Origin: Streptomyces luomodiensis
GTDB lineage: Bacteria > Actinomycetota > Actinomycetes > Streptomycetales > Streptomycetaceae
Length of the DNA stretch: 64,000 nt
Assembly (NCBI RefSeq): GCF_031679605.1
Contig: NZ_CP117522.1
Coordinates: forward strand, 4,278,001-4,342,000
Direction of reading: 5' to 3'
Both the position numbers and the translations under genes were made by a program. Shown one piece after another: positions 22-25,670 of the stretch; position 1 is the stretch's first letter, and each line of letters opens with the position of its first letter. The notes beneath the pieces were generated by a model. The model saw only the letters and a program-made list of their open reading frames with translations. It was not told the DNA's origin and did no database searches.

Positions 22-33
22 CTACGCGCGTAG
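22..33 (+). promoter_or_regulatory. Palindromic operator at the deoC promoter
   Basis: Perfect 12-bp palindrome CTACGCGCGTAG. It lies between a -35-like GTGACA (11-16) and a -10 TATGCT (35-40), so a bound repressor would block the promoter. The same 12-mer occurs at 14423-14434 before add, and a 10/12 match at 25659-25670 before the BMP lipoprotein gene. The regulator is not in this window. Confidence 0.75.
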
Positions 34-52
34 ATATGCTCATCTGGTGACC

Positions 53-1048
53 ATGCCCACCACAGTTCCCGCATACGGCGAAGAGGCCGCGGAGCGACTC
101 GCGTCGATGGCGGACGTGACCGCGAGCGACAGCGCCCTGCGCCGCTTTCTGCACGGCCTGCCGGGCGTCGACGCGGTCGGCCTCCAGGCCCGTGCCGCGA
201 CCCTCGGCACCCGCTCGATCAAGACCACGGCGAAGGCGTACGCCATCGACCTGGCGATCTCGATGATCGACCTGACGACCCTGGAGGGCGCGGACACCCC
301 GGGCAAGGTCCGGGCCCTGTGCGCCAAGGGCCTCAACCCCGACCCCACCGACCGCACCGTCCCCCGGGTCGCGGCGATCTGCGTCTACGGCGACATGGTG
401 GCCACCGCCAAGGAGGCCCTGGGGGGCAGCGACATCCAGGTGGCCGCCGTCGCCACGGCCTTCCCCTCCGGCCGGGCCGCGCTGCCGGTCAAGCTGGCCG
501 ACACCCGGGACGCGGTGGCCGCCGGGGCGGACGAGATCGACATGGTGATCGACCGCGGCGCCTTCCTCTCCGGCCGCTACCTCGAGGTCTTCGAGGAGAT
601 CCGGCAGGTGAAAGACGCCTGTGCCCGCGAGGACGGCACCGCCGCCCACCTCAAGGTCATCTTCGAGACCGGTGAACTCCAGACGTACGACAACGTCCGC
701 CGCGCCTCCTGGCTGGCGATGCTCGCGGGCGCGGACTTCATCAAGACCTCCACCGGCAAGGTGGCCGTCAACGCGACCCCGCCCGTCACCCTCGTCCTGC
801 TGGAGGCGGTGCGCGACTTCCGCGCCGCCACCGGTGTGCAGGTGGGCGTGAAGCCCGCGGGCGGCATCCGCACCAGCAAGGACGCCATCAAGTACCTGGT
901 GATGGTCAATGAGACGCTGGGCGAGGAGTGGCTCTCCCCGCAGTGGTTCCGCTTCGGCGCCTCCAGCCTGCTCAACGATCTGCTGATGCAGCGCCAGAAG
1001 CTGAGCACCGGCCGGTACTCCGGTCCCGACTACGTGACGGTGGACTGA
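53..1048 (+). CDS. deoC: Deoxyribose-phosphate aldolase
   Basis: Cytosolic class I aldolase that cleaves 2-deoxyribose-5-phosphate to glyceraldehyde-3-phosphate and acetaldehyde, the last step of deoxynucleoside catabolism. 331 aa. The Schiff-base lysine is in FIKTSTGK (about residue 231), and KPAGGIRT further on is the usual phosphate-binding strand. The longer reading from GTG 11 is unlikely because that codon is the -35 box and the operator would be coding. A GTG at 47 lies exactly 6 nt after the -10, so a leaderless start two codons earlier is possible. It is followed after 6 nt by an aldehyde dehydrogenase, which fits removal of acetaldehyde. Confidence 0.93.
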   Translation: MPTTVPAYGEEAAERLASMADVTASDSALRRFLHGLPGVDAVGLQARAATLGTRSIKTTAKAYAIDLAISMIDLTTLEGADTPGKVRALCAKGLNPDPTDRTVPRVAAICVYGDMVATAKEALGGSDIQVAAVATAFPSGRAALPVKLADTRDAVAAGADEIDMVIDRGAFLSGRYLEVFEEIRQVKDACAREDGTAAHLKVIFETGELQTYDNVRRASWLAMLAGADFIKTSTGKVAVNATPPVTLVLLEAVRDFRAATGVQVGVKPAGGIRTSKDAIKYLVMVNETLGEEWLSPQWFRFGASSLLNDLLMQRQKLSTGRYSGPDYVTVD

Positions 1049-1054
1049 TACGCC

Positions 1055-2539
1055 ATGCCAGTTTTCGAGTACGCACCCGCGCCGGAGTCCCGCGCGGTCG
1101 TCGACATCGCCCCGTCCTACGGGCTGTTCATCGACGGGGAGTTCGGCGAGGCGGGCGACGGCAAGGTCTTCAAGACCCTCTCCCCCTCCTCCGAGGAGGT
1201 CCTCTCGGAGGTCGCCCAGGCAGGCGCCGAGGACGTCGACCGCGCCGTCAAGGCCGCCCGTAAGGCGTTCGCGACCTGGTCCGCGCTCCCGGGCTCGGAG
1301 CGCGCCAAGTACCTCTTCCGCATCGCGCGGATCATCCAGGAGCGCTCCCGCGAGCTGGCCGTCCTGGAGTCGCTGGACAACGGCAAGCCGATCCGCGAGT
1401 CCCGTGACGCCGATCTGCCCCTGGTCGCGGCCCACTTCTTCTACTACGCGGGCTGGGCCGACAAGCTGGCCTACGCCGGCTACGGACCCGACCCCAGGCC
1501 CCTGGGCGTGGCCGGTCAGGTCATCCCCTGGAACTTCCCGCTCCTGATGCTGGCCTGGAAGGTCGCCCCGGCGCTCGCCACCGGCAATACGGTCGTCCTC
1601 AAGCCCGCCGAGACGACGCCTTTGAGCGCCTTGTTCTTCGCGGACATCTGCCGGCAGGCCGGGCTGCCCAAGGGCGTGGTGAACATCGTCACCGGCGACG
1701 GCTCGACCGGCGCCGAGCTGGTCGCCCACCCCGGGGTCGACAAGGTGGCCTTCACCGGCTCCACGGAGGTCGGCAAGGCCATCGCCCGTTCCGTCGCCGG
1801 TACGCGGAAGAAGGTCACCCTGGAGCTCGGCGGCAAGGCCGCGAACATCGTCTTCGACGACGCCCCCATCGACCAGGCGGTCGAGGGCATCATCGGCGGC
1901 ATCTTCTTCAACCAGGGCCATGTCTGCTGCGCGGGCTCCCGCCTGCTGGTCCAGGAGTCCGTCCAGGAGGAGTTGCTGGACGCGCTCAAGCGCCGGATGC
2001 GCACCCTGCGGGTGGGCGATCCGCTGGACAAGAACACCGACATCGGCGCCATCAACTCCGCCGAGCAGCTGGCCCGTATCCGTGCGCTGGCCGACGCGGG
2101 CGAGGCCGAGGGGGCCGAGCGCTGGGCGCCGGAGTGCGAACTGCCCAGCCACGGCTACTGGTTCGCGCCCACCCTCTTCACCGGCGTCACCCAGGCCCAC
2201 CGGATCGCCCGTGAGGAGATCTTCGGCCCGGTGCTGTCGGTGCTGACCTTCCGTACCCCCGACGAGGCCGTGGCCAAGGCCAACAACACCCCCTACGGCC
2301 TGTCGGCGGGCATCTGGACGGAGAAGGGCTCGCGCATCCTGGCCATGGCGAACAAGCTGCGGGCCGGTGTGATCTGGTCCAACACCTTCAACAAGTTCGA
2401 CCCGGCCTCCCCGTTCGGCGGTTACAAGGAGTCGGGTTACGGCCGCGAGGGCGGTCGCCACGGCCTGGAGGCATACCTCGCCGGAGCAGCCGAACCGACG
2501 AGCGAGCGCAGCGAGCGAGAAGGAGAGCGCGACCGATGA
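1055..2539 (+). CDS. Aldehyde dehydrogenase
   Basis: NAD(P)-dependent aldehyde dehydrogenase of 494 aa, full family length. VIPWNFPLLM and the FTGSTEVGK nucleotide-binding segment are present, as are the general base Glu in TLELGGKA (about E257) and the catalytic Cys in GHVCCAGSR (about C291). The last 20 residues are a charged tail. It is transcribed just after deoC and overlaps the next gene by 4 nt (ATGA), so translational coupling is likely. From context it probably oxidises acetaldehyde released by DeoC; the true substrate range cannot be read from sequence. Confidence 0.9.
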   Translation: MPVFEYAPAPESRAVVDIAPSYGLFIDGEFGEAGDGKVFKTLSPSSEEVLSEVAQAGAEDVDRAVKAARKAFATWSALPGSERAKYLFRIARIIQERSRELAVLESLDNGKPIRESRDADLPLVAAHFFYYAGWADKLAYAGYGPDPRPLGVAGQVIPWNFPLLMLAWKVAPALATGNTVVLKPAETTPLSALFFADICRQAGLPKGVVNIVTGDGSTGAELVAHPGVDKVAFTGSTEVGKAIARSVAGTRKKVTLELGGKAANIVFDDAPIDQAVEGIIGGIFFNQGHVCCAGSRLLVQESVQEELLDALKRRMRTLRVGDPLDKNTDIGAINSAEQLARIRALADAGEAEGAERWAPECELPSHGYWFAPTLFTGVTQAHRIAREEIFGPVLSVLTFRTPDEAVAKANNTPYGLSAGIWTEKGSRILAMANKLRAGVIWSNTFNKFDPASPFGGYKESGYGREGGRHGLEAYLAGAAEPTSERSEREGERDR

Positions 2540-3411
2540 AGCAGTCTGACCGCAACGACCGGCTCTCCGTGCTCAAGACCTACAAGCTGTTCGTCGGGGG
2601 CAAGTTCCCCCGGTCCGAGAGCGGGCGGGTGTACGAGGTGACCGACACGAAGGGCCAGTGGCTGGCCAACGCCCCGCTGGCCTCCCGTAAGGACGCCCGG
2701 GACGCGGTCGTCGCCGCGCGCAAGGCGTTCGGCGGCTGGTCCGGGGCCACCGCCTACAACCGGGGCCAGATCCTCTACCGCGTCGCCGAGATGCTGGAGG
2801 GCCGCCGGGACCAGTTCATCCGCGAGGTGGCCGAGGGCGAGGGGCTGAGCAGGGCCGGGGCCACCGCCGCCGTGGACGCCGCGATCGACCGCTGGGTCTG
2901 GTACGCGGGCTGGTCCGACAAGATCGCCCAGATCGCCGGGTCGGCCAACCCCGTGGCCGGGCCGTACTTCAACCTCTCCTCCCCCGAGCCGACCGGCGTG
3001 GTCGCGCTCCTGGCGCCCCAGGAATCCTCGTTTCTCGGCCTGGTGTCGGTGATCGCCCCGGCGATCGTCACCGGGAACACGGCCGTGGTCGTCGCCGCCG
3101 AGGGCGCCCCGCTGCCCGCGCTCTCCCTCGCCGAGGTCCTGGCCACCTCCGATCTGCCCGGCGGGGTGGTGAACCTGCTCTCCGGCAGGACCGCGGAGAT
3201 CGCCGTCCCGCTCGCCGCGCACCAGGACGTCAACGCGATCGACCTGGCCGGCGCGGATGCGGAGCTCGCGGTGGAGCTGGAGAAGGCCGCCGCGGAGAAC
3301 CTCAAGCGCGTCCTCCGTCCACAGCCTGTGGATTGGGCGGCCGACCCCGGCACCGGCCGTCTCCTCGCCTTCCTGGAGACCAAGACCGTCTGGCATCCGA
3401 TGGGCGTCTGA
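2536..3411 (+). CDS. Aldehyde dehydrogenase-like protein lacking the catalytic half
   Basis: 291 aa related to the N-terminal, cofactor-binding half of aldehyde dehydrogenases (conserved stretches around GYVALLAPQE-like and PAIVTGNTAVV segments, residues about 155-200). No GGKA glutamate and no catalytic cysteine motif follow; the protein ends shortly after residue 270 with a different tail. It starts inside the stop of the active dehydrogenase (ATGA overlap), so the two are made together. It is probably a partner or structural subunit rather than an enzyme. The reading frame is clean and not obviously decaying, so I call it a pseudoenzyme, not a pseudogene. Confidence 0.8.
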   Translation: MKQSDRNDRLSVLKTYKLFVGGKFPRSESGRVYEVTDTKGQWLANAPLASRKDARDAVVAARKAFGGWSGATAYNRGQILYRVAEMLEGRRDQFIREVAEGEGLSRAGATAAVDAAIDRWVWYAGWSDKIAQIAGSANPVAGPYFNLSSPEPTGVVALLAPQESSFLGLVSVIAPAIVTGNTAVVVAAEGAPLPALSLAEVLATSDLPGGVVNLLSGRTAEIAVPLAAHQDVNAIDLAGADAELAVELEKAAAENLKRVLRPQPVDWAADPGTGRLLAFLETKTVWHPMGV

Positions 3412-3430
3412 TCGAGCCCACTCCCCGACC

Positions 3431-3478
3431 CTCACGGCGTCCGTGACTTCCGGACATCGCGGGGGTCTTTTTCGTCGC
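3431..3478 (+). terminator. Weak candidate terminator after the deoC operon
   Basis: A 5-bp GTCCG/CGGAC hairpin is followed by a G-rich stretch and a run of five T. It is short for a Streptomyces terminator, but it is the only candidate between the deoC operon and the next promoter. Confidence 0.3.
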
Positions 3479-3482
3479 ACAT

Positions 3483-3512
3483 ATTGTCAACAATTTCATC
3501 AACAGTTAGGTT
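3483..3512 (+). promoter_or_regulatory. Promoter with GntR-like palindrome before the aromatic-acid operon
   Basis: AT-rich island in GC-rich DNA. A -35 TTGTCA (3484-3489) and -10 TAGGTT (3507-3512) are spaced by 17 nt. The -35 is embedded in ATTGTCAACAAT (3483-3494), a palindrome with 5-bp arms of the TTGTnnACAA type bound by many GntR/FCD regulators. No adjacent regulator gene is present; assignment to the GntR family is inference from the site shape. Confidence 0.6.
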
Positions 3513-3546
3513 GCGAGAGACCCCACGCCACGAAGGAAAACAGCGA

Positions 3547-4572
3547 ATGATCATCGACTGCCATGGCCACTTCACCACCGCGCCGCCGGCGCTGGAGGCA
3601 TGGCGCACCCAGCAGATCAACGGACTCACCGACCCCGCTCTCTCCCCCGCCCGCGCCGACCTCCGCATCAGCGACGACGAGCTGCGCGAGAGCATCGAGC
3701 CGAACCAGCTCCGCCTGATGGACGAACGCGGCATCGACATGACCGTCTTCTCGCCGCGCGCGTCCTTCATGGCCCACCACATCGGTGATTTCGACACCTC
3801 CGCCGAGTGGGCGGCCATCTGCAACGAGCTGTGCTACCGCGTCAGCCGGCTCTACCCGGAGCGCTTCGTCCCGGCCGCGATGCTTCCGCAGTCGCCCGGC
3901 GTCGACCCGGCCACCTGCGTGCCCGAGCTCACCCGCTGCGTGGAGGAGTACGGGGCCGTGGCGGTCAACCTCAACCCCGATCCCTCGGGCGGCCACTGGA
4001 CGGCCCCGCCGCTGACCGACCGCTCGTGGTACCCCGTCTACGAGAAGCTGGTGGAGTACGACGTCCCGGCGATGGTGCATGTGAGCACCAGCGTCAACCC
4101 GGCGTTCCACACCACCGGGGCGCACTACCTCAACGCCGACACGACGGCGTTCATGCAGCTGGTGCAGGGCGACCTGTTCGCCGACTTCCCCACCCTGCGC
4201 CTGATCATCCCGCATGGCGGCGGTGCCGTTCCGTATCACTGGGGCCGGTTCCGCGGCCTGGCGATGGCGCTCGGCAAGCCGGCCCTGGAGGAGCACGTCC
4301 TGGGCAATGTGTTCTTCGACACGTGCGTCTACCACCAGCCCGGCAGCAACCTCCTCTACGAGGTCATCCCGGCCCGGAACATCCTCTTCGCCTCGGAGAT
4401 GATCGGCGCCGTCCGCTCCGTCGACCCCCGTACCGGCCGGCACTTCGACGACACCCGCCGCTACGCCGAGGCCGCCGGGCTCTCCACGGAGGATCTGGCC
4501 GACATATTCGAACGTAACGCCCGCACTGTCTACCCTCGCCTGGACGCGCTGCTGAAGAAGCAGGACCGCTGA
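3547..4572 (+). CDS. Amidohydrolase, probable 4-oxalomesaconate hydratase
   Basis: 341 aa metal-dependent amidohydrolase (COG2159 type). The N-terminus MIIDCHGHFT carries the first metal-binding histidine pair; LIIPHGGGAVPYH and the late FASEMIGAVR segment resemble the LigJ-type hydratase that converts 4-oxalomesaconate to 4-carboxy-4-hydroxy-2-oxoadipate in protocatechuate 4,5-cleavage or gallate degradation. The start is the ATG at 3547 because GAAGGA lies just upstream; earlier in-frame codons fall inside the promoter. The next gene is a 2-pyrone-4,6-dicarboxylate lactonase homologue, whose product is the substrate of this enzyme, which supports the call. Confidence 0.72.
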   Translation: MIIDCHGHFTTAPPALEAWRTQQINGLTDPALSPARADLRISDDELRESIEPNQLRLMDERGIDMTVFSPRASFMAHHIGDFDTSAEWAAICNELCYRVSRLYPERFVPAAMLPQSPGVDPATCVPELTRCVEEYGAVAVNLNPDPSGGHWTAPPLTDRSWYPVYEKLVEYDVPAMVHVSTSVNPAFHTTGAHYLNADTTAFMQLVQGDLFADFPTLRLIIPHGGGAVPYHWGRFRGLAMALGKPALEEHVLGNVFFDTCVYHQPGSNLLYEVIPARNILFASEMIGAVRSVDPRTGRHFDDTRRYAEAAGLSTEDLADIFERNARTVYPRLDALLKKQDR

Positions 4573-4612
4573 TGGCCACCGCAGGGCCGCGCATCCGCCC
4601 GGAGGAGCCCTC

Positions 4613-5533
4613 ATGAGCACCCTTTCCCCCAAGACCCCGGGCTGGCTGGACTGGTACGCCAACCCGTCCGAGCCCGCCTTCACCCTCCCGCCGGGCACCG
4701 TCGACGCCCACTGCCACGTCTTCGGTCCACAGGCCGCGTTCCCCTTCGCCCCCGAGCGCAAGTACACCCCCTGCGACGGCGGCAAGGACGATCTCTTCGC
4801 CCTCCGCGACCACCTCGGGGTCAGCCGCAATGTGATCGTCCAGGCCACCTGCCACGGGGCGGACAACAGCGCCATGGTCGACGCCGTCCAGTCGTCCGGC
4901 GGCCGGGCGCGCGGTATCGCGACCGTGCGCCCGGACATCACCGACGCCGAGCTGCGCCGGCTGGACGCGGCGGGGGTGCGCGGGGTGCGCTTCACCTTTC
5001 TGAAGCGCCTGGCCGATGCCGCGCCCCAGGACGCCCTGATGACCGTCGCCAAGAAGATCGCCCCGCTCGGCTGGCATGTCGTCCTCTACTTCGAGAGCAA
5101 TGACCTGCCCGAGCTGGAACGTTTCTTCGGCTCACTGCCCACCCCCCTGGTGGTGGACCACATGGGCCGGCCGGATGTGACCCAGCCGGCCGAAGGACCG
5201 GACTTCACCCGCTTCCTGCGGTTCGTCGAGCGCAACGAGGTGTGGGTCAAGGTGACCTGCCCCGAGCGCCTGAGCGTCACCGGTCCCGCCGCGCTGAACG
5301 CGGAGCGCCACCCCTACACCGATGTCGTGCCCTTCGCCCGCCACACGGTCGAGGAGTTCCCCGACCAGGTGCTGTGGGGCACGGACTGGCCGCACCCCAA
5401 CCTCACCGACCACATGCCGGACGACGGGCTGCTGGTCGACTATGTGCCCCAGGTGGCGGTCACCGCCGAGCAGCAGCGGAAGCTGCTGGTCGACAACCCC
5501 ATGAGGCTCTACTGGCCCGGCGAAACCGCCTGA
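4613..5533 (+). CDS. ligI: 2-pyrone-4,6-dicarboxylate lactonase-like hydrolase
   Basis: 306 aa amidohydrolase-superfamily protein. VDAHCHVFGP gives the metal-site histidines near residue 32; RKYTPCDGG, GVRGVRFTFLKR, VVDHMGRPD and the C-terminal VLWGTDWPHPN are hallmarks of PDC lactonases, which open 2-pyrone-4,6-dicarboxylate to 4-oxalomesaconate. It lies 40 nt downstream of the 4-oxalomesaconate hydratase candidate. The symbol follows the LigI family; function in this strain is untested. Confidence 0.8.
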   Translation: MSTLSPKTPGWLDWYANPSEPAFTLPPGTVDAHCHVFGPQAAFPFAPERKYTPCDGGKDDLFALRDHLGVSRNVIVQATCHGADNSAMVDAVQSSGGRARGIATVRPDITDAELRRLDAAGVRGVRFTFLKRLADAAPQDALMTVAKKIAPLGWHVVLYFESNDLPELERFFGSLPTPLVVDHMGRPDVTQPAEGPDFTRFLRFVERNEVWVKVTCPERLSVTGPAALNAERHPYTDVVPFARHTVEEFPDQVLWGTDWPHPNLTDHMPDDGLLVDYVPQVAVTAEQQRKLLVDNPMRLYWPGETA

Positions 5534-5628
5534 TCCCTGCCCCTCCCCCGCTCCGCCCCCTCCCCTCCCTCAGGTGTCTCCCCGGTCTCCCCCTCCCCGT
5601 TTCCCGCCTCTCCTCACAAGGGCCGCAC

Positions 5629-6981: not shown

Positions 6982-6988
6982 CGGCGTC

Positions 6989-7004
6989 GTCACGTGGGGG
7001 TCAC
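6989..7004 (+). promoter_or_regulatory. Candidate AfsQ1 site before the uridine-kinase-like gene
   Basis: Exact match to GTnAC-n6-GTnAC (GTCAC, six bases, GTCAC), the direct-repeat box described for the response regulator AfsQ1, which is encoded 1.8 kb away. It lies 33 nt upstream of the GTG at 7037. Eight fixed bases can occur by chance about once or twice in 64 kb, so this is suggestive only. Confidence 0.45.
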
Positions 7005-7036
7005 GCGGGCGTAAGGATGCGTCACACTGGTGTTCC

Positions 7037-7687: not shown

Positions 7688-7689
7688 CA

Positions 7690-7741
7690 ACAGGTGCGAG
7701 GCCGGACAGATCCCCCCTGGACTGTCCGGCCTCGCACCTGT
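7690..7741. terminator. Bidirectional terminator between udk-like gene and sigQ
   Basis: Perfect 20-bp inverted repeat (7690-7709 with 7722-7741) and a 12-nt loop, between two converging genes. A pyrimidine-rich tract with runs of C and T (7742-7800) follows on the plus strand. Confidence 0.9.
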
Positions 7742-7824
7742 TTCCCCCGTGTTCCCCCGATTTTTTCCTGTTTCCCCCGTTCCCCCCTTTTCCTTTCTCT
7801 CCGCCTTCGGTCGTTCCGCCGCCG

Positions 7825-8607
7825 TCAGGCGACCAGCTCGCCGAAGGACTCCTCCTGGTCACGGCCGAAGCTGAGGGTCTCGTCCTCGCGCAGCCGGCGC
7901 AGCGAGCGCCAGATGCTGCTTTTGACCGTTCCGACACTGATGTTGAGTATGTCGGCGATTTCCGGGTCTGTCCGGCCCTCGTAGTAGCGCAGCACCAGCA
8001 TCGTGCGCTGGAGCTCGGGCAGCCGGGCCAGGGCCTGCCACAACACGGCGCGCAGCTCGGTGCCGCGCATCGCGTCCTGGTCGCCCACCGTCTCCGGCAG
8101 CTCCTCCGTCGGGTACTCGTTGAGCTTGCGCCGACGCCACGCGCTGATGTGCAGATTGGTCATGGTGCGGCGCAGATAGCCGCCGACCGCCGCCTTGTCG
8201 CTGATCCGGTCCCAGGCCCGGTAGGTCGAGAACAGCGCGCTCTGGAGCAGGTCCTCGGCCTCGAAGCGGTCCCCGGTCAGGTGGTAGGCGGTTGCGTACA
8301 GGGAGGCGCGGCGCTCCTGGACATAGGCGGTGAACTCCGCCTCCGACGCGGTACGCCGCTCCCCCTCTGCCTCCCCGTACGAGCTCCCCCCGGGTCCCCC
8401 CGGTCCCCCGTTGTCCCCCCCGAGGCCGTGACCGGCCTCCTTGTCCCCCGTGATCGCGTCAATGGCCACCATGTAAGGAGGCCGCTGACGCCCGGCGCCG
8501 CGAGCGCACCCCCGCCCGCTCACGGCACCGGACTTCTCGTTGCCCCGACCGGCGTCGTGGAGGCGCGTGCGAACTGCGCTGGTGTGAGTGAAGTGCAGTG
8601 TGCTCAT
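7825..8607 (-). CDS. sigQ: RNA polymerase ECF-type sigma factor SigQ
   Basis: Sigma-70 family member, 260 aa from the ATG at 8607. Region 2 is about residues 95-155 (ATAYHLTGDRFEAEDLLQSAL) and region 4 about residues 195-245 (YEGRTDPEIADILNISVGTVKSS, a helix-turn-helix for -35 recognition). Residues 1-80 are a low-complexity, Gly/Pro-rich extension; an internal ATG at 8472 would give 215 aa that still contains both regions, so the start is uncertain. Divergent from afsQ1 with an AfsQ1-type box between them, the arrangement known for sigQ in S. coelicolor, where sigQ is an AfsQ1 target affecting antibiotic production. Confidence 0.85.
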   Translation of the reverse strand: MSTLHFTHTSAVRTRLHDAGRGNEKSGAVSGRGCARGAGRQRPPYMVAIDAITGDKEAGHGLGGDNGGPGGPGGSSYGEAEGERRTASEAEFTAYVQERRASLYATAYHLTGDRFEAEDLLQSALFSTYRAWDRISDKAAVGGYLRRTMTNLHISAWRRRKLNEYPTEELPETVGDQDAMRGTELRAVLWQALARLPELQRTMLVLRYYEGRTDPEIADILNISVGTVKSSIWRSLRRLREDETLSFGRDQEESFGELVA

Positions 8608-8727
8608 GGTCGCGCCCCCGTCGGTGGAGCCTTGATCGGTTCGCTGCTTGCCGCCCCGGGCCGGTGGTGTTCCGCCCGGTGCACAGAAGACTTTGCCGGG
8701 CCAGTTTCATGGGGGTGTCTGCCGACT

Positions 8728-8743
8728 GTCACAGCCTCGTCAC
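8728..8743. promoter_or_regulatory. AfsQ1 box in the sigQ-afsQ1 intergenic region
   Basis: GTCAC, six bases, GTCAC: an exact GTnAC-n6-GTnAC repeat, the published form of the AfsQ1 operator. It sits about 120 bp upstream of the long sigQ start and about 70 bp upstream of afsQ1, suiting activation of sigQ and possible autoregulation. Confidence 0.75.
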
Positions 8744-8809
8744 AGGGGATCGCGCCGATGAACCCCCGACGGTCGAACTACAGGCCCCTTGTAGGCCAGA
8801 ATGACCAAC

Positions 8810-9487
8810 GTGCCTTTCCTGTTGCTGATCGAGGACGACGACGCCATCCGCACGGCCCTCGAACTCTCGCTGTCCCGCCAGGGCCACCGTGTGGCGACCG
8901 CGGCGACGGGCGAGGACGGCCTGAAGCTGCTGCGTGAGCAGCGGCCGGACCTGATCGTGCTGGATGTGATGCTGCCCGGGATCGACGGCTTCGAGGTGTG
9001 CCGCCGGATCCGCCGTACCGACCAGCTGCCGATCATCCTGCTGACCGCGCGCAGCGATGACATCGACGTCGTGGTCGGCCTGGAATCGGGTGCCGACGAC
9101 TATGTGGTCAAACCCGTGCAGGGCCGGGTGCTGGACGCCCGCATCCGCGCGGTGCTGCGGCGCGGCGAGCGGGAGGCCACCGACTCCGCGGTCTTCGGCA
9201 ACCTGCTGATCGACCGTGCCGCCATGACGGTCACCAAGAACGGCGAGGATCTTCAGCTCACCCCCACCGAACTGCGGCTTCTGCTGGAGCTCAGCCGCCG
9301 GCCGGGGCAGGCGCTGTCGCGGCAGCAGCTGCTGCGGCTGGTGTGGGAGCACGACTACCTCGGGGACTCCCGGCTGGTCGACGCCTGCGTACAGCGGCTG
9401 CGCGCGAAGGTGGAGGACGTGCCGTCGTCGCCGACGTTGATCCGTACGGTGCGCGGGGTGGGGTACCGGCTGGACGCGCCACAATGA
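8810..9487 (+). CDS. afsQ1: Two-component response regulator AfsQ1
   Basis: 225 aa OmpR/PhoB-type regulator: receiver domain (residues 1-118) with acidic pocket E8-D9-D10, phosphoacceptor D52 in LIVLDVMLPG, and K102-type lysine in VVKPVQG; winged-helix domain from about 130 to the end. Start chosen at GTG 8810, giving MPFLLLIEDDD as in known AfsQ1, rather than the ATG 9 nt earlier. A -10 CAGAAT (8797-8802) ends 7 nt before this GTG, so the message is probably leaderless. Followed by its kinase gene afsQ2. The pair responds to nitrogen-related conditions in S. coelicolor. Confidence 0.92.
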   Translation: MPFLLLIEDDDAIRTALELSLSRQGHRVATAATGEDGLKLLREQRPDLIVLDVMLPGIDGFEVCRRIRRTDQLPIILLTARSDDIDVVVGLESGADDYVVKPVQGRVLDARIRAVLRRGEREATDSAVFGNLLIDRAAMTVTKNGEDLQLTPTELRLLLELSRRPGQALSRQQLLRLVWEHDYLGDSRLVDACVQRLRAKVEDVPSSPTLIRTVRGVGYRLDAPQ

Positions 9488-9590
9488 GCCACGCACGTGC
9501 GGCCACCCACCCGCACCCGACCACGATGCCCACACCCCCAGCGAGCGCGCTGGGCGCATACGGGGGCGGAGAAGTACGGAGTTGAGCGCA

Positions 9591-13239: not shown

Positions 13240-14406
13240 TCAGCTTCCCTTGCGGGCGGAATCCCTGGTCACGGAGGATGCGGGGGCCACCTGGCGGAAC
13301 AGCCATTCGGACTTCAGCTCGGCATACCCGGGCTTGATCACGTCATTGATCATGGCGAGACGTTCGCCAAAAGGAATGAAGGCCGATTTCATGGCATTGA
13401 CCGTGAACCATTGCATGTCGTCCAGCGAGTAATGGAACGTTGATACAAGATGCTGGAATTCACCGCTCATGCTCGTCCCGCTCATCAGACGATTATCCGT
13501 ATTCACGGTGGCCCGGAAATGGAGTCGGCGGAGCAGTCCGATGGGGTGCTCGGCGTATGACGTGGCCGCGCCGGTCTGGAGGTTGGAGGTCGGGCACAGC
13601 TCCAGCGGAATGCGCTTGTCCCGGACGTACGAGGCCAGGCGGCCGAGGGTGAGGGAGCCGTCGTCCGCGACCTCGATGTCGTCGATGATGCGGACGCCGT
13701 GACCCAGCCGGTCGGCGCCGCACCACTGGAGCGCCTGCCAGATGGACGGCAGCCCGAACGCCTCGCCCGCGTGGATCGTGAAGTGGTTGTTCTCCCGCTT
13801 CAGGTACTCGAAGGCGTCCAGGTGGCGGGTGGGCGGGTAGCCGGCCTCGGCGCCCGCGATGTCGAAGCCGACCACGCCGAGGTCGCGGTAGCGGTTGGCG
13901 AGTTCGGCGATCTCCAGTGCGCGGGCCGCGTGGCGCATCGCGGTCAGCAGCGCGCCGACGCGGATGCGGTGGCCGTTCTCCCAGGCCCGCCGCTCACCCT
14001 CGCGGAAGCCCTCGTTGACCGCCTCGACGACCTCCTCCAGGGTCAGCCCGCCCTCGAGGTGCTGTTCGGGGGCGTAGCGGACCTCGGCGTAGACGACACC
14101 GTCCGCGGCGAGGTCCTCGGCGCATTCGGCGGCCACCCGGACGAGCGCGTCGCGGGTCTGCATCACGCCGACGGTGTGGGAGAACGTCTCCAGATAGCGC
14201 TCCAGCGACCCGGAGTCCGCCGCCTCGCGGAACCACCGGCCGAGCTTGTCGGGCTCCGTCTCCGGCAGCGCCTCGTACCCCGTCTCCCTCGCGAGGTCGA
14301 CGACGGTGCCGGGGCGCAGCCCGCCGTCGAGGTGGTCGTGCAGCAGCACCTTGGGGGCGCGGCGGATCTGTTCGGGGGTGGGCTCATGCGTGTGCTCGCT
14401 CGTCAT
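13240..14406 (-). CDS. add: Adenosine deaminase
   Basis: 388 aa zinc enzyme that deaminates (deoxy)adenosine to (deoxy)inosine. HDHLDGG (residues about 21-27) gives the first zinc histidines, [10 protein letters not shown] the third histidine and general acid, [11 protein letters not shown] and [16 protein letters not shown] the C-terminal zinc-ligand region. Start is ATG 14406, exactly 6 nt after a -10 TATGGT (14413-14418 on the minus strand), so the mRNA is probably leaderless. The CTACGCGCGTAG operator is just upstream. The 39-residue longer reading runs through this promoter and is rejected. Confidence 0.93.
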
Positions 14407-14422
14407 CTGCGCACCATAGCCC

Positions 14423-14434
14423 CTACGCGCGTAG
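14423..14434 (-). promoter_or_regulatory. Palindromic operator at the add promoter
   Basis: Perfect CTACGCGCGTAG, identical to the deoC site. On the minus strand it ends 4 nt before the -10 TATGGT of add, so it occupies the spacer region of the promoter. Confidence 0.8.
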
Positions 14435-17521: not shown

Positions 17522-18475
17522 GTGTCACGCATCAGTTACGAAAACGACATTCCGGTGACAGCAGATGTCGAGGCCGAGTCCTGGGCGGCCGCCCTGACAC
17601 CGCGTCTCGCCCAGTTCGCCGCCGTCGCCCGCCATGAGCATGTGACGCGGGCCGCACACGAGTTGGGGGTGCCTCAGTCGACGCTCAGCCGGGCCATGGT
17701 CCGGCTGGAGGAGGACCTGGGCGTGGTGCTCTTCGCCCGCCGGGGCCGTACGGTGGCGCTCACCCCGGCGGGACGGACGTTTCTGCGCTCGGTCGAACGG
17801 GCCCTCGCAGAGGTCGACCGCGCCGCCGAGTCCGTACGGGCCGACGCCGATCCGGCGGCGGGCCGGGTCTCGTTCGGCTTCCTGCACACGCTGGGCACCG
17901 AGACCGTGCCCGGTCTGATCCGGGCCTTCCGGGTGGACCATCCCCGGGTGCGGTTCCAACTGGTCCAGAACTACGGCGAGGCGATGATCGAGCGGATGCG
18001 CGCGGGCGGCCTCGACCTGTGCCTGACCTCCCCCGTACCGGACGCCCCCGATCTGGTCGCCCGCCGCCTGGACGAACAGCGGCTGCGGCTGGTGGTCCCC
18101 GACGACCACCGGCTGGCCGGCCGCCGCCGGGTCCGGCTCGCCGAGGCCGCCTCCGAACTCTTCGTCACCCTGGAACCGGGCTACGGGCTGCGGCGCATCA
18201 CCGACGCGCTGTGCGCCGAGGCGGGGTTCACCCCGAGGATCGCCTTCGAGGGCGAGGAGGCGGAGACCCTGCGCGGCCTGGTCGCGGCCGGTCTCGGCGT
18301 GGCCCTCCTGCCGCCCCCGGCGGTCCCCCGCCCCGGAGTGGCGGAGCTGACCGTCACCGCCCCGCGCGCCGTCCGCGAGATCGGCGTCGCGTGGCTGGAC
18401 GGCCACCCCGATACGCCGCCGGTGGCCGCCTTCAAGAGGTTCCTGCTGAGCCGGCGGGGGCAGCTGCTGGCCTAG
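17522..18475 (+). CDS. LysR-family transcriptional regulator
   Basis: 317 aa. Winged helix-turn-helix at residues about 28-86 (FAAVARHEHVTRAAHELGVPQSTLSRAM), then the periplasmic-binding-protein-like effector domain (about 112-310) with GFLHTLGTETVP at its start. It begins at GTG 17522 with a 25-residue lead before the DNA-binding domain. Divergent from the MFS gene at 16062-17429, which it probably regulates in response to an unidentified ligand. Ends 12 nt before the stop of deoA. Confidence 0.88.
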   Translation: MSRISYENDIPVTADVEAESWAAALTPRLAQFAAVARHEHVTRAAHELGVPQSTLSRAMVRLEEDLGVVLFARRGRTVALTPAGRTFLRSVERALAEVDRAAESVRADADPAAGRVSFGFLHTLGTETVPGLIRAFRVDHPRVRFQLVQNYGEAMIERMRAGGLDLCLTSPVPDAPDLVARRLDEQRLRLVVPDDHRLAGRRRVRLAEAASELFVTLEPGYGLRRITDALCAEAGFTPRIAFEGEEAETLRGLVAAGLGVALLPPPAVPRPGVAELTVTAPRAVREIGVAWLDGHPDTPPVAAFKRFLLSRRGQLLA

Positions 18476-18487
18476 GGTCTGCGAGCG

Positions 18488-19762
<1,275 letters not shown>

Positions 19763-19829
19763 GGCGGCTGTACGGGGCCTTTCGTGTGGTGGGGCACGGT
19801 GGCGATCCGGCCCCGGGGGTGGAGCGGGG

Positions 19830-19859
19830 CCGGTCCGGGGCCGGTGCGCCCCGGACCGG
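19830..19859 (-). terminator. Intercistronic hairpin between cdd and deoA
   Basis: 11-bp perfect stem (19830-19840 with 19849-19859), 8-nt loop, just after the cdd stop. It may attenuate or stabilise the message rather than end it, since deoA has no obvious promoter of its own. Confidence 0.6.
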
Positions 19860-19867
19860 GCGCGCCG

Positions 19868-20290
19868 TCAGCCGTGGGCGGCGGCGCGCCGCAGGTCGGC
19901 GGGGCCGAAGGCGTCGGGGAGGAGTTCGGCCAGGGGGCGGATGCCGGTGGCGGTGTCCATCCGGAGCTCCGGGCCGCCGTGTTCCCACAGCAGCTGGCGG
20001 CAGCGGCCGCAGGGCATCAGTACGGCGCCCTCGCGGTCGCAGCAGGTGAAGGCGGTGAGGCGGCCGCCGCCCGAGGCGACGAGGGAGGAGACCAGGCCGC
20101 ATTCGGCGCACAGCGCGACACCGTAGGCGGCGTTCTCCACGTTGCAGCCGCTGACCGTGCGGCCGTCGTCGACGAGCGCGGCGGCGCCCACCGGGAAGCC
20201 GGAGTAGGGGGCGTAGGCCCGGGACATGGCGTCCCGGGCCTGTGCGCGCAAGGCCTCCCAGTCGGGGGCCGCGGCGGTGGACGTGCTCAT
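19868..20290 (-). CDS. cdd: Cytidine deaminase
   Basis: 140 aa, the length of homotetrameric cytidine deaminases. Catalytic Glu and zinc ligands are in SGCNVENAAYG, CAECG and PCGRCRQ. Converts (deoxy)cytidine to (deoxy)uridine, giving substrate for deoA. Start at ATG 20290 overlaps the stop of the upstream permease by ATGA. Confidence 0.94.
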   Translation of the reverse strand: MSTSTAAAPDWEALRAQARDAMSRAYAPYSGFPVGAAALVDDGRTVSGCNVENAAYGVALCAECGLVSSLVASGGGRLTAFTCCDREGAVLMPCGRCRQLLWEHGGPELRMDTATGIRPLAELLPDAFGPADLRRAAAHG

Positions 20291-21582
20291 GTGCCCTGTC
20301 CCTTCCGGTAGGGCTTGCTGTTCGCCTTGGGCATCCGCAGCCGCTGTGAGGCGAGCCCCATGACCAGCAGGGTCACGATGTACGGCGTGGCGCTGACCAG
20401 GTCGTTGGGCACGGTGTCGGTCAGGGCGTACCACAGCAGCAGCGCGACGGCCGCGGCGCCGGACACCGCGCCCGCGACATAACTCTTGCGGACAATCCGC
20501 CAGCCCGCCAGCACGGCGAGGCCGAGTGCGACCAGCAGCAGCAGTGCGTGGACGGTCGCCCCGCCGTTGCGCAGCTGGAGGGCGTCGGAGTAGCCGAACA
20601 GCCCGGCGCCCATGGCGAGCCCGCCCGGCCGCCAGTTGCCGAAGAGCATGGCGGCGAGGCCGATGTAGCCGCGGCCGCCGGTCTGGCCCTCGTTGTAGAT
20701 GTGCGAGCGGACGAGGGCGAGGAAGACCCCGCCGAGTCCGGCGAGGGCGCCGGAGACCACCACGGCCGTGTACTTGTAGAGGTAGACGTTGACGCCGAGG
20801 GACTCGGCCGCCGTCGGGTTCTCGCCACAGGACCGCAGCCGCAGGCCGAACGAGGTCCGCCACAGGGCGAAGAAGCTGCCCGCGACCAGGAGGACGGAGA
20901 CGATGGTCAGCGCCGAGATGTCGGTGACCAGGCCGCCGAGGATGCCCGCGATGTCCGAGACCAGGAACCAGTGGTGGTTCTCCAGATCCGCGAGCCAGTC
21001 GGACAGCCCGGGGACGGTGAACGTCTGGATGGGGTCGACCTGCGGGGAGTTCTTCGGGGAGCCGCCGATGTCGCCCAGCGGTTCGAACCAGCGCTTGGCC
21101 AGATAGGTGGTGGCGCCCAGGGCGAGGATGTTGATCGCCACACCGGAGATGATGTGGTCCACACCGAAGGTGACGGTGGCGACCGCGTGGACCAGACCGC
21201 CGACCGCGCCGCCGAGGACACCGGCGAGCACGCCCACCCAGGGGTTGGTCTGATAGCCCGCCCAGGCGCCGAAGAAGGTGCCGAGGATCATCATGCCCTC
21301 GAGGCCGATGTTGACCACGCCGGCCCGTTCGGACCACAGTCCGCCCAGGCCCGCGAGCCCGATGGGCACGGCCATGGAGAGCGCGGCGCCGATCTGGCCG
21401 GAGGAGGTGACGCGGTCGAAGTCCGCCTGCTGGGCGGCGTCGACGAGGGCGCGCAGCACCGACAGCGCGATCAGCGCCCCGGCGACGATCAGCAGCACCT
21501 TGCCCAGGGACATCCGGGAGGCGGGCCCGTTCCCCTTGCCCGGCGCGCTCGTGCTCTTGGTGGTGGTCACCGTGGCACTCAT
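20287..21582 (-). CDS. Nucleoside ABC transporter permease (second)
   Basis: 431 aa, about 10 membrane helices, branched-chain-amino-acid-type permease domain as in BMP/Nup systems. LWSERAGVVNIGLEGMM (about residues 92-108) is the family signature and GENPTAAESLGVNV the cytoplasmic coupling loop. ATG 21582 chosen for the GGAG upstream; the frame extends further without need. Works with the next permease, the ATPase and the BMP lipoprotein. Confidence 0.88.
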   Translation of the reverse strand: MSATVTTTKSTSAPGKGNGPASRMSLGKVLLIVAGALIALSVLRALVDAAQQADFDRVTSSGQIGAALSMAVPIGLAGLGGLWSERAGVVNIGLEGMMILGTFFGAWAGYQTNPWVGVLAGVLGGAVGGLVHAVATVTFGVDHIISGVAINILALGATTYLAKRWFEPLGDIGGSPKNSPQVDPIQTFTVPGLSDWLADLENHHWFLVSDIAGILGGLVTDISALTIVSVLLVAGSFFALWRTSFGLRLRSCGENPTAAESLGVNVYLYKYTAVVVSGALAGLGGVFLALVRSHIYNEGQTGGRGYIGLAAMLFGNWRPGGLAMGAGLFGYSDALQLRNGGATVHALLLLVALGLAVLAGWRIVRKSYVAGAVSGAAAVALLLWYALTDTVPNDLVSATPYIVTLLVMGLASQRLRMPKANSKPYRKGQGT

Positions 21583-21670
21583 CGTGTTTCTCCGTTCGCT
21601 TCTCCGCCCACTCGGCACGAAGGCGCGGCTATCGTCATCACCTGCGGCCCGGAGGCCTCGTGTGCGTCGC

Positions 21671-22813
21671 TCACGTCACCGGCACCTCCGTCTCCGTCTT
21701 GTCCGAACCCTGGCCCTTACCGGCCTTGGCCTGGGCGGCGAGCTCCGCGCCGACCCTCTGCTGCTGGCGCTTGAGCCCGTAGCGGCGCACCAGTTCGTAC
21801 GCGATGACGACACACAGGACGATCACGCCCTGCATCACACCGACGATCTCCTTGTCGTAGCCCTGGAACTCCAGGCGGTTGGCGCCGCGCTCCAGGAAGC
21901 CCCACAGCACGGCGGCCAGCGCGATGCCGACCGGGTTGTTGCGGCCGAGCAGCGCGATGGCGATACCGGTGAAGCCGATGCCCGTGGGGAAGTCGGAGGT
22001 GAACTGGTGGGTGTCGTTGAGCAGGGTCGGCATGCCGACCAGACCGGCCATCGCGCCCGAGAGCACCATGCTGGTGAACACCATGCGCCTGACGTTGACG
22101 CCGCTGGCCTGGGCGGCGGACTCGGAGCGGCCCACCGCGCGCAGGTCGAAGCCGAACCGGGTGCGGCCGAGCAGGAACCAGAAGCCGACGCCCGCGAGCG
22201 CCGCGACCACGATGAAGCCCCAGATGGGGTCGAGGTCGCCGCCCGCCGGGATGGTGAAGAAGTGGCTGGAGGACGGCAGCGGGTCGGTGGCCACGATGTT
22301 GGTCTGCTTGTCGAGGTCGGCCAGCCGCCCGTCCACCAGCAGATAGCTGATGAGGATGCCCGAGAGGGAGTTCAGCATGATGGTGCTGATCACCTCGCTG
22401 ACGCCCCGGTAGACCTTCAGCAGACCGGCGATGGACGCCCACATCGCGCCGACGAGCATGCCGACCAGGATGATCAGCGGGATCTGCACCAGGCCCGGCA
22501 GCTTCAGCGCCCCGCCGACGACGGCGGCGAAGAAGGCGGCGAGCCGGTACTGGCCGTCGACGCCGATGTTGAAGAGGTTCATCCGGAAGCCGACGGCCAC
22601 CGCGAGCCCCGCCAGGTAGTACGTCGTCGCCTTGTTGAGGATGTAGACCTGGCTGTCGGCCTTCACGCCGTAGTCGAACATGATGCCGAAGGCGTTGAAC
22701 GGCTCCTTGCCGGTCGCCAGCAGCACCAGGGCGGTCACCACGAACGCGGCGGCGAGCGCCAGCACCGGGGCCGCGACCGCGAGCAGCACCCGCTCCTTGT
22801 CCAGCTTCTTCAT
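21671..22813 (-). CDS. Nucleoside ABC transporter permease (first)
   Basis: 380 aa, about 8-9 membrane helices. FRMNLFNIGVDGQYRLAAFFA and GRSESAAQASGVNVRR are the conserved permease segments of this family. C-terminal 35 residues are polar and charged. Starts within the ATPase stop (ATGA overlap at 22810-22813), so it is translationally coupled. Confidence 0.9.
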   Translation of the reverse strand: MKKLDKERVLLAVAAPVLALAAAFVVTALVLLATGKEPFNAFGIMFDYGVKADSQVYILNKATTYYLAGLAVAVGFRMNLFNIGVDGQYRLAAFFAAVVGGALKLPGLVQIPLIILVGMLVGAMWASIAGLLKVYRGVSEVISTIMLNSLSGILISYLLVDGRLADLDKQTNIVATDPLPSSSHFFTIPAGGDLDPIWGFIVVAALAGVGFWFLLGRTRFGFDLRAVGRSESAAQASGVNVRRMVFTSMVLSGAMAGLVGMPTLLNDTHQFTSDFPTGIGFTGIAIALLGRNNPVGIALAAVLWGFLERGANRLEFQGYDKEIVGVMQGVIVLCVVIAYELVRRYGLKRQQQRVGAELAAQAKAGKGQGSDKTETEVPVT

Positions 22814-24450
22814 CGATCCTCTCCCCCGGTCGCGGCCTCGGTCGCGGCCTCGGTCCCGGTCCCGGTTCCGCCGTCCGCAGGGTGCTCCAGATGGCCGGAG
22901 GCCGCGCCGGTCATGGCCGAGCCGAGCTCCTCCGGGGTGATGGTGGCGGGGTCGGCGTCGGCGACCAGCCGGCCGCGGTACATCACCCGCAGGGTGTCGG
23001 ACAGGCCGATCAGCTCGTCCAGGTCGGCCGAGATCAGCAGCACGGCCAGGCCCTCCCGGCGCGCGGTGCGGATCTGGTCCCAGATCTGCGCCTGCGCGCC
23101 CACGTCCACCCCACGGGTGGGGTGCGCGGCGATCAGCAGCTTGGGGTGGTGGCTCATCTCCCGGCCGACGATCAGCTTCTGCTGGTTGCCGCCGGACAGC
23201 GAGGCCGCGGTGACCTCGATCCCGGGGGTGCGCACGTCGTAGTCGGCGACGATCCGCTCGGTGTCCCGGCGGGCGGCGGCCGGGTTGAGCAGCCCGCCCC
23301 TGCTGTTGGGCTCCTCGGTGACATGGCCGAGGATGCGGTTCTCCCACAGCGGCGCCTCCAGCAGCAGTCCGTGCCGGTGGCGGTCCTCGGGGATGTAGCC
23401 GATGCCGTCCTCGCGCCGCTTGCGGGTGGGCGTGTGGGAGATGTCGGCGCCGTCGAGGGTGACGGTGCCGGCGTCGGGGTCGCGCATGCCCATGATGGCC
23501 TCGACCAGTTCGGCCTGGCCGTTGCCCTCCACCCCGGCGATGCCGAGGACTTCGCCCTTGCGGATGGTGAAGCCGATGTCGTCGAGCACCGCCCGCTCCA
23601 CCCCGTCCACATCGGTGGCGGTCAGCCGCAGCGCGTCCACGACGAGCATCTCGGTGTCGGTGACGGTGGATTCGCGGGTCTCGGGCGAGGGCAGTTCGCT
23701 GCCGACCATCAGCTCGGCCAGCTGCCGGGGGTTGGTCTCGGACGGCACCACGGAGGCGACCGTGGTGCCGCGGCGGATGACGGTGATGTCATCGGCCACG
23801 GACAGCACCTCGCCCAGCTTGTGCGAGATGAACAGCACCGTCAGGCCCTCGGCCTTGAGTTCGCGGAGGTTGTCGAAGAGCGCGTCCACCTCCTGCGGGA
23901 CGAGGACGGCGGTCGGCTCGTCGAGGATGAGCGTACGGGCGCCCCGGTAGAGGACCTTGAGGATCTCCACGCGCTGACGGTCCGCCACGCCCAAATCCTC
24001 GACGAGGACATCGGGGCGGACGCCCAGCCCGTAGGCGTCGGATATCTCCTTGATCCGGGCGCGCGCCCGGCCGCCGATGCCGTGCAGCTTCTCCGCGCCG
24101 AGCACGACGTTCTCCAGCACGGTGAAGTTGTCGGCGAGCATGAAGTGCTGGTGCACCATGCCCACGCCGCGGGATATGGCGTCCGCCGGGGAGTGCAGTT
24201 CCACCGACTCGCCGTCGAGCGCGATGGTGCCCTCGTCCGGGCGCTGCATCCCGTAGAGGATCTTCATCAGGGTCGACTTGCCCGCGCCGTTCTCGCCCAC
24301 GAGGGCGTGCACGGTGCCGCGGCGCACGGTGATGTCGATGTCGTGGTTGGCGACGACTCCGGGGAACCGCTTGGTGATTCCGCGGAGTTCTACGGCGACG
24401 TCGGTGACGGCACCGGCGGGAGCGCCCTTGGGGGGGCTGGCGGCTTTGAT
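22810..24450 (-). CDS. Nucleoside ABC transporter ATPase, two ABC modules; start codon unusual
   Basis: 546 aa counted from an ATC at 24450. Module 1: Walker A GENGAGKST near residue 55, Walker B ILDEPTA. Module 2: GVEGNGQAEL in place of Walker A, LSGGNQQK signature, then LLIAAHPTRGVD. The asymmetry is normal for RbsA/MglA-type ATPases. No ATG, GTG or TTG lies in frame between the bmp gene and the ABC fold; instead AGGAG (24457-24461) precedes this ATC by 6 nt. A single-base error in the nearby run of seven C could instead join the GTG at 24457, but that GTG has poor spacing. Confidence 0.85.
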   Translation of the reverse strand: MKAASPPKGAPAGAVTDVAVELRGITKRFPGVVANHDIDITVRRGTVHALVGENGAGKSTLMKILYGMQRPDEGTIALDGESVELHSPADAISRGVGMVHQHFMLADNFTVLENVVLGAEKLHGIGGRARARIKEISDAYGLGVRPDVLVEDLGVADRQRVEILKVLYRGARTLILDEPTAVLVPQEVDALFDNLRELKAEGLTVLFISHKLGEVLSVADDITVIRRGTTVASVVPSETNPRQLAELMVGSELPSPETRESTVTDTEMLVVDALRLTATDVDGVERAVLDDIGFTIRKGEVLGIAGVEGNGQAELVEAIMGMRDPDAGTVTLDGADISHTPTRKRREDGIGYIPEDRHRHGLLLEAPLWENRILGHVTEEPNSRGGLLNPAAARRDTERIVADYDVRTPGIEVTAASLSGGNQQKLIVGREMSHHPKLLIAAHPTRGVDVGAQAQIWDQIRTARREGLAVLLISADLDELIGLSDTLRVMYRGRLVADADPATITPEELGSAMTGAASGHLEHPADGGTGTGTEAATEAATGGEDR

Positions 24451-24514
24451 GGCGCACTCCTGAGGGGCGACGGGGGGTGGGGCGGGCCGGGGCCGGACCG
24501 GCCGGGGTACGCCG

Positions 24515-24553
24515 CGGACCCGGGCGGGCGCCCGGGGGCGCCCTGCGGGTCCG
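24515..24553 (-). terminator. Hairpin between bmp and the ABC ATPase gene
   Basis: 8-bp outer stem (24515-24522 with 24546-24553) enclosing a second G/C stem. Placed after the binding-protein gene, it probably acts as a partial terminator or RNA stabiliser raising the binding protein over the other subunits, as is common in such operons. Confidence 0.6.
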
Positions 24554-24565
24554 TGGCGCGCGGGG

Positions 24566-25600
24566 TCAGTCCTTGTAGGTGTCGTTGACCTTGATCTGAC
24601 CGTCGATGATCTTCTTCTTGGCCGCCTCGATCTTCGGCTTGATGTCGTCGATGAACCCGCCGGAGTACGACAGGGAGACACCGCCGCGCTTGAGGTCGTA
24701 GGACTGGACGCCGCTCTCGGGCTTCTTGTCCTTGATGACGCTCTTGATGAAGTCGTAGACCGAGCCGTCCACGTTCTTGACCATGGAGGTCAGGATCGAG
24801 TTCTTGTACTGGGACAGGCCCTTGTCGTAGTACTGGTCGCCGTCGACGCCGATCGACCAGGTGCCCTTCTTGCCGGCGGTCGCCTCGATGGCGCCCGCGC
24901 CGGAGCCGCCGGCCGCGGAGAAGATCACGTCGACCTTGTTGGAGAGCATGCCCTCGGCGATGTCCTTGCCGCGGTCGGGCATGCCGAAGCCCTTGGCCGA
25001 ACCGACCTGCACCCACTGGACGTCGAGCGACGCCTTGGGGTTGGTGTCCTTCAGGCCCTGCTGGAAGCCGCCCGCGAACTTCTTGATCAGCGCGCTGTCG
25101 GTGCCGCCGATGAAGCCCACCTTGTCGGACTTGGTCTTCAGCCCCGCGGCCACACCGGCCAGGTAGGAGCCCTCGTGCTCGGCGGCGACCAGGCTGGCCA
25201 CGTTCTTGGCGTCGACGACCGAGTCGACGATGGCGAAGTCGGTGTCCTTGTACTTCTTGGCGGCCTTGGTGAGCGAGGGGGTCCACGCGTAGCCGACGCC
25301 TATGACGGGGTTGTAGCCCGCCTCGGCCAGGCTGGCCAGCTTGTCGTAGCGGTCGGCGTCGGTGTCGCCGTCCTTCGCCGTCAACTCCTTGCCCTTGACG
25401 TCGAAGTCCTTCAGGGCCTTGTCATAGCCCTGGGCGGCGGAGTCGTTGAAGGAGTGGTCGCCACGGCCGCCGACGTCATAGGCCAGACCGACGCCGGCGT
25501 CCTTGCTTCCCTCTTCCGAACTGCTGCCACACGCGGTGACGGAGAATGCGAGAGCCGCGGTGGCAATGCCCGCGACAGCTATCGTGGATACCCGGCGCAC
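24566..25600 (-). CDS. BMP-family nucleoside-binding lipoprotein
   Basis: 344 aa. Lipobox VTAC with Cys24, then a mature Ser/Glu-rich linker and the BMP/PnrA fold: GLAYDVGGRGDHSFNDSA binds the nucleoside edge, VIGVGYAW and GGTDSALIKKF follow. Captures nucleosides outside the membrane for the ABC system encoded downstream. GTG start at 25600 with AGGGGA 6 nt upstream. First gene of the uptake-salvage operon, under the third copy of the shared operator. Confidence 0.93.
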   Translation of the reverse strand: MRRVSTIAVAGIATAALAFSVTACGSSSEEGSKDAGVGLAYDVGGRGDHSFNDSAAQGYDKALKDFDVKGKELTAKDGDTDADRYDKLASLAEAGYNPVIGVGYAWTPSLTKAAKKYKDTDFAIVDSVVDAKNVASLVAAEHEGSYLAGVAAGLKTKSDKVGFIGGTDSALIKKFAGGFQQGLKDTNPKASLDVQWVQVGSAKGFGMPDRGKDIAEGMLSNKVDVIFSAAGGSGAGAIEATAGKKGTWSIGVDGDQYYDKGLSQYKNSILTSMVKNVDGSVYDFIKSVIKDKKPESGVQSYDLKRGGVSLSYSGGFIDDIKPKIEAAKKKIIDGQIKVNDTYKD

Positions 25601-25658
25601 GAGGGTCCCCTCTGAATGACTCGGAGCGCCCCTTTGCGGCGCTGGCTCCGCCGCATCG

Positions 25659-25670
25659 TAACGCGCGTAG
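25659..25670 (-). promoter_or_regulatory. Variant palindromic operator at the bmp promoter
   Basis: On the minus strand CTACGCGCGTTA, 10 of 12 bases of the deoC/add palindrome. It overlaps a -10 TACGAT (25655-25660), giving a leader of about 45 nt with a ribosome-binding site, unlike the leaderless deoC and add. Confidence 0.7.

Follow-up and report, generated by a model that had tools for sequence, protein, structure and literature searches.

Three promoters in a 64,000-nucleotide stretch of the Streptomyces luomodiensis chromosome (contig NZ_CP117522.1, positions 4,278,001 to 4,342,000, here called the window) carry copies of one palindromic word of 12 bases, and the question arises what this word does ahead of deoC, add and bmp, three genes concerned with nucleosides. 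The word, CTACGCGCGTAG, is perfect at window positions 22-33 (deoC) and 14423-14434 (add), while a third copy, TAACGCGCGTAG, at 25659-25670 (bmp) matches at 10 of 12 positions; read on the opposite strand this bmp variant is CTACGCGCGTTA. All three sites stand directly ahead of the predicted gene starts. From the comparison of sequences set out below we think it probable that CTACGCGCGTAG serves a single dimeric factor, likely an unlinked repressor, as its operator; this factor would control nucleotide scavenging together with steps of purine synthesis in the Streptomycetaceae.

A preliminary description of the window had given these three positions, which we confirm, and had held that such a 12-mer is not expected by chance even once in 64 kb. 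Indeed two exact copies were found against 0.01 expected from dinucleotide shuffles. The whole genome of 10.04 Mb contains three perfect copies, all inside 20 kb, and none of the reversed word used as a control. The third copy, at 4272982, lies 5 kb upstream of the window and about 32 bases ahead of the start of pnp (purine nucleoside phosphorylase; TIGR01698, 336 bits, cut-off 303). The perfect copies are not scattered over the genome, all three preceding nucleoside genes, namely pnp, deoC and add. A degenerate pattern that keeps the palindrome, CTAYNCGNRTAG, occurs at seven places in the genome (control 23), and four of these places are the sites at pnp, deoC, add and purS. As a separate observation, near-identical tandem units (ggctgagaccgctggccgggaac-like) are found directly ahead of the pnp promoter, about 5 kb before the window (L004:14780-14935).

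The word is common to the promoters of functionally linked genes above chance and is kept in orthologous promoters, as befits a shared operator. Its conservation was followed in 80 named loci, nearly all from Streptomyces, found via the neighbouring DeoR-family protein. It is perfect in the promoters of all 75 pnp genes that these loci hold and in 50 of 52 deoC promoters, the other two having one mismatch (deoC gave 54 matches, 52 with the promoter on the contig and two that run off it). Each of 61 Streptomyces genomes carries two to six copies (zero to three for the reversed control) and, among the places listed, most lie within tens of kb of one another. Ten long clusters from the genus have perfect pnp, deoC and add promoters in 10/10 cases each. 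The word was also found in 60 of 61 genomes of the family. Among 17 loci from its other genera, pnp is present in 15, with a site of at most one mismatch in 14 and of two mismatches in one, and all 13 deoC genes have a site with at most one mismatch. In a draw across the class, 19/19 members of the genus had the word versus 9/177 others. The 11 perfect sites in nine genomes from outside the family had no match to the query genes, a set without the nucleotidase and purS, and outside the family the word looks like chance. Within the genomes sampled, the regulon is thus characteristic of the family.

Which genes the perfect sites precede can be seen from a tally of 131 of them, in which some sites are counted twice where loci overlap and which served for labels only: 43 belong to pnp, 34 to add, 15 to deoC, 11 to the importer ATPase gene, one to purS and one to a hydrolase match of 26% identity, and 26 have no label. 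Twenty-two unclear loci were re-inspected. Five isolated perfect sites from other genomes comprise three before a second add gene (L148-L150), one lying between bmp and the importer ATPase gene (L151) and one that has no recognised gene (L152). Perfect words also stand ahead of a gene for a HAD-type phosphatase in two genomes (L122, L175). The sites and genes of the cluster that lie within the window are these:

22-33: putative operator, perfect palindrome, 1 base before a -10-like TATGCT (35-40).
53-1048, plus strand: deoC, deoxyribose-phosphate aldolase (PF01791; TIGR00126, 175 bits, cut-off 117), start codon at 53.
13240-14406, minus strand: add, adenosine deaminase (PF00962; NF006847, 636 bits, cut-off 412); open frame listed to 14523, start set at 14406.
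14423-14434: putative operator, perfect palindrome, 4 bases before a -10-like TATGGT (14418-14413, minus strand).
18488-19762, minus strand: deoA, thymidine phosphorylase (NF004490, 656 bits, cut-off 269).
20287-21618, minus strand: importer permease (PF02653).
21671-22813, minus strand: probable importer permease, named by position only and not by family search; third-position G+C 0.97.
22810-24681, minus strand: ABC importer ATPase (PF00005 twice); the true start is probably after the bmp stop.
24566-25600, minus strand: bmp, PnrA/BMP-type substrate-binding protein of an ABC importer (PF02608).
25659-25670, minus strand: putative operator variant CTACGCGCGTTA, overlapping a -10-like TACGAT.

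The bmp site keeps its imperfect form in relatives, CTACGCGCGTTA standing at eight of nine bmp promoters in the ten genus clusters. Its diverging end overlaps the -10-like hexamer, which may explain why the deviation is fixed. Many relatives have an extra perfect site ahead of the ATPase gene, in the gap that follows bmp, and deoA has a one-mismatch site in two of six genus clusters. The proposal that deoC, add and bmp belong to one regulon is supported by this conserved variant and by the perfect deoC and add sites. The regulon is wider than the three window sites, since pnp, 5'-nucleotidase, purS, purN and probable uracil-catabolism sites have to be added.

Fourteen places in the genome match the word with one mismatch, and among them are two before 5'-nucleotidase genes, one before purS and one before a gene for a carbon-nitrogen hydrolase. 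The promoters of purS, the hydrolase gene and one of the nucleotidase genes (the second, in L006, being left out) were gathered from 30 Streptomyces genomes by protein and blind to the motif. Sites with at most one mismatch were present at 27 of the 29 best nucleotidase matches, at 26 of 30 purS promoters and at 25 of 29 hydrolase promoters, the last count including a one-mismatch site at a contig edge (L354). The remaining two nucleotidase and four purS promoters have two mismatches each, as have three of the remaining hydrolase promoters, the fourth having three. One of the 30 genomes gave no nucleotidase match, and a second match in another genome (L306) had no site. For comparison, only 5 of 498 promoters of eight control genes had a site with at most one mismatch, and of these five matches three come from the pnp site on the far side of a short gap, while the other two are a single site scored for two genes. 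The start of the nucleotidase resembles a signal peptide. The hydrolase gene is followed by a gene for a class-III aminotransferase, which suggests a beta-ureidopropionase and a beta-alanine aminotransferase of uracil breakdown; we give this role as probable because the best named model, AguB, stays below its cut-off (258 vs 410).

Two further features of these promoters may be recorded. The hydrolase promoters (L017:1459-1531; relatives L337-L365) often have a second word, TACGTTC, some 25-30 bases upstream of the palindrome, perhaps the mark of a further regulator. The purS gene is divergent from an lsr2-type gene (L307, L184), and the site could affect this gene too.

Each class of site outside the cluster has its own deviation from the palindrome: CTACGCGCGTTG for the nucleotidase, mostly CTACYCGCGTAG for purS and CTACGKGCGTAG for the hydrolase. 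It could therefore be argued that several related factors are at work, the nucleoside genes, purS (CTACYCGCGTAG) and the uracil-type operon (CTACGKGCGTAG) each having one of their own. This would agree with the persistence of each deviation across species, and none of the nucleoside promoters listed showed CTACGKGCGTAG. However, the perfect word is found before purS in one genome (G174) and before purN in two others (G266 and G293; TIGR00639, 220 bits, cut-off 150, in G266), while L076 and G262 have a variant of the purS type at deoC. These exchanges tie purine synthesis to the same operator as the nucleoside genes, and we regard separate factors as somewhat unlikely.

If a single factor binds all these sites, its gene has to be sought. 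Of the window proteins that were scanned none is a clearly fitting regulator, and the distant repressor of the preliminary description still seems the best reading, although a DeoR-family gene, at a distance of 2.4 kb from the pnp site, lies 7.4 kb before the window. As an alternative, this protein might repress through the palindrome, sensing deoxyribose-5-phosphate or a related sugar phosphate. Its gene is a conserved neighbour of pnp and is present in 19/19 other genomes of the family tested; its helix-turn-helix stretch is identical in 80/80 loci (loci which were themselves found by this protein); and its only sequence match in the PDB is 7l6l, a C-terminal portion of a repressor of the deoxyribose operon (E 1e-6). 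On the other hand, it is not the equivalog of E. coli DeoR (71 bits vs a cut-off of 244), and its own promoter lacks the palindrome, a two-mismatch site being found in 1 of 80. Outside the family, the best orthologue (G106, 67-68%) adjoins a sugar ABC transporter, in a 20-kb stretch where the single palindrome site with at most two mismatches is intragenic. The gap beside that orthologue contains instead an AACGA direct repeat (L270:15806-15825), which recurs 28 times in the 80 loci (among L019-L098), always at 250 bases or less from where pnp starts. We hence consider the DeoR-family protein unlikely to be the factor that binds the palindrome.

The AACGA repeat might rather be the binding site of the DeoR-family protein itself. 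Elsewhere it gave two matches, G106 included; the reversed control gave two. Since the strict repeat occurs in only 28 of 75 pnp promoters, and is absent from that of S. luomodiensis, the evidence for a separate DeoR box is moderate. With moderate confidence it can be suggested that pnp is often under two controls, DeoR at the AACGA repeat and a separate factor at the palindrome. SCO4920 is probably the orthologue of the DeoR-family protein beside pnp. A co-expression module centred on SCO4920, termed a deoR-family regulator, is reported to include bldN and a conservon (PMC3224704).

Other regulator genes were considered and set aside. A TetR gene (L004:10950-11582) adjoins deoR in 44 of the 66 loci for which 1.5 kb or more was available and in 2 of 20 further loci, and is not a constant partner. 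A LysR gene (window 17522-18475) occurs in each of the ten genus clusters, yet in none of them does its own promoter have a site with at most two mismatches, and it faces a gene of the major facilitator superfamily. Where a site precedes a MarR gene (L016), a glycosidase gene is closer.

The position of the word indicates how the factor may act. With -10-like hexamers read by eye, the word lies 1-4 bases before such a hexamer at deoC, add and the nucleotidase gene and overlaps one at bmp; at pnp and purS it is further upstream, at about the -35 position. The word covers the region of the -35 and -10 elements, which makes a repressor that blocks RNA polymerase likely, and the conserved span of about 12-14 bases fits a single dimer. 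An activator, or a factor whose role at each promoter depends on the position of its site, would suit pnp and purS, where the word takes roughly the place of a -35 element; this is quite improbable, since at deoC, add, bmp and the nucleotidase gene the word is between the -35 and -10 elements or on the latter, as is usual for repressors. Chance matches in a G+C-rich genome can be practically dismissed, for although the 10/12 class is as frequent as expected, the excess of copies over controls and the conservation at orthologous promoters already refute them.

What joins the conserved sites, the genes behind them and their placement over promoter-like hexamers would, we infer, be repression by one factor at all sites, together with a signal that lifts it. 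The factor, which is most likely a repressor and whose gene would lie apart from its targets, would bind CTACGCGCGTAG ahead of the genes for scavenging (secreted 5'-nucleotidase, BMP-type nucleoside importer, add, pnp and deoC, and in some species also deoA and a second add gene) and ahead of those for purine synthesis (purS and, in some species, purN). Repression would be released when purines are short, through loss of a purine corepressor or through phosphoribosyl pyrophosphate (PRPP), and deoC would then handle the deoxyribose yielded by scavenging. Induction by the signal suggested earlier, a nucleoside or deoxyribose phosphate, would suit deoC and add, though not purS; a shortage of purines would suit the nucleotidase and uptake as well as add, pnp and purS. 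Since the site is common to purS and the scavenging genes, release by purine shortage seems somewhat likelier than simple induction by nucleosides, and purS argues at least equally for a signal of purine supply, in place of a deoxyribose phosphate or in addition to it.

Several observations weigh against one operator for all these genes. Window sites with up to two mismatches number four, where 4.15 are expected, so that the 10/12 class alone is not significant; the fourth, at 9398-9409, is within a response-regulator gene. Allowing up to one mismatch, 17 places were found genome-wide versus 42 for the reversed control; there is no overall enrichment, and the weaker sites need conservation as support. 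Ten of the 14 one-mismatch sites have no known link, being inside genes, after a tRNA-like stretch or unexplained. In S. luomodiensis the gap between bmp and the ATPase gene has no site and the deoA promoter none with up to two mismatches. Seven loci with perfect copies in other genomes of the family have no recognised nucleotide gene (L120, L125, L152, L196, L202, L208, L221). The fixed deviations of the purS, nucleotidase and hydrolase sites could point to different factors, and one factor over breakdown and synthesis would be unusual if nucleosides were the inducer. Finally, our support comes from sequence comparison, and none of the candidate regulators was accepted. At one of the seven loci two tandem copies of the word, one imperfect, stand before a 389-residue frame without a family match (L221:1485-1512).

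How does this regulon compare with known systems? As in PurR-type regulons, genes of de novo purine synthesis (purS, purN) carry the operator. PurR of Bacillus subtilis governs a purine regulon that likewise joins synthesis with salvage and transport; known PurR proteins use a purine corepressor or a PRPP signal, and the PurR operator differs in sequence from CTACGCGCGTAG. The likeness to the LacI-family PurR of E. coli (PMC4052901) lies in one operator that joins purine synthesis with salvage or transport and in repressor-type positions. The present regulon, by contrast, consists mainly of deoC, add, pnp and the genes for the BMP importer and a secreted nucleotidase, and purS and purN, the pur genes that were covered, are the sole synthesis genes found. 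The targets (nucleoside uptake, phosphorylase, deaminase and deoC) resemble those of DeoR and CytR of E. coli; the operator differs, and here de novo purine genes are included. The inducers of CytR are described in PMC4052901. NupR of Bacillus thuringiensis is likewise a Gram-positive regulator of nucleoside uptake and is reported to belong to the GntR/HutC family. XdhR of S. coelicolor is also a purine-linked Streptomyces repressor, whose DNA binding is weakened by guanosine tetraphosphate (ppGpp) and guanosine triphosphate (GTP), but the targets named in the part of the review covered here are xdh and actinorhodin regulatory genes (PMC6627660). That review of Streptomyces purine metabolism discusses XdhR and, in the same part, makes no mention of PurR (PMC6627660). 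In the titles and abstract openings of openly licensed PMC papers no description of the regulon was found.

A broader proposal, to which we give a little less than an even chance, is that the Streptomycetaceae have a master regulator of nucleotide supply, a functional counterpart to PurR and CytR/DeoR combined, in which one 12-base operator of graded quality would join the secreted nucleotidase and nucleoside uptake with the breakdown of purines and deoxynucleosides, with purine synthesis and probably with the breakdown of uracil. Streptomyces is the main antibiotic-producing genus, and messengers derived from GTP steer development there; such a regulator could feed the balance of GTP, guanosine tetra- and pentaphosphate ((p)ppGpp) and cyclic diguanylate (c-di-GMP) that governs development and antibiotic production. 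The palindrome provides a ready bait, and the sites a short list of promoters, for finding the regulator of this nucleotide economy.

Two other features of the window deserve mention. A sigma-factor gene is divergent from a response-regulator gene at 7825-9487, a pair that is conserved near the cluster and that we take to resemble sigQ-afsQ1. A gene of the NeuB-type sialic-acid synthase family is located at 28697-29629.

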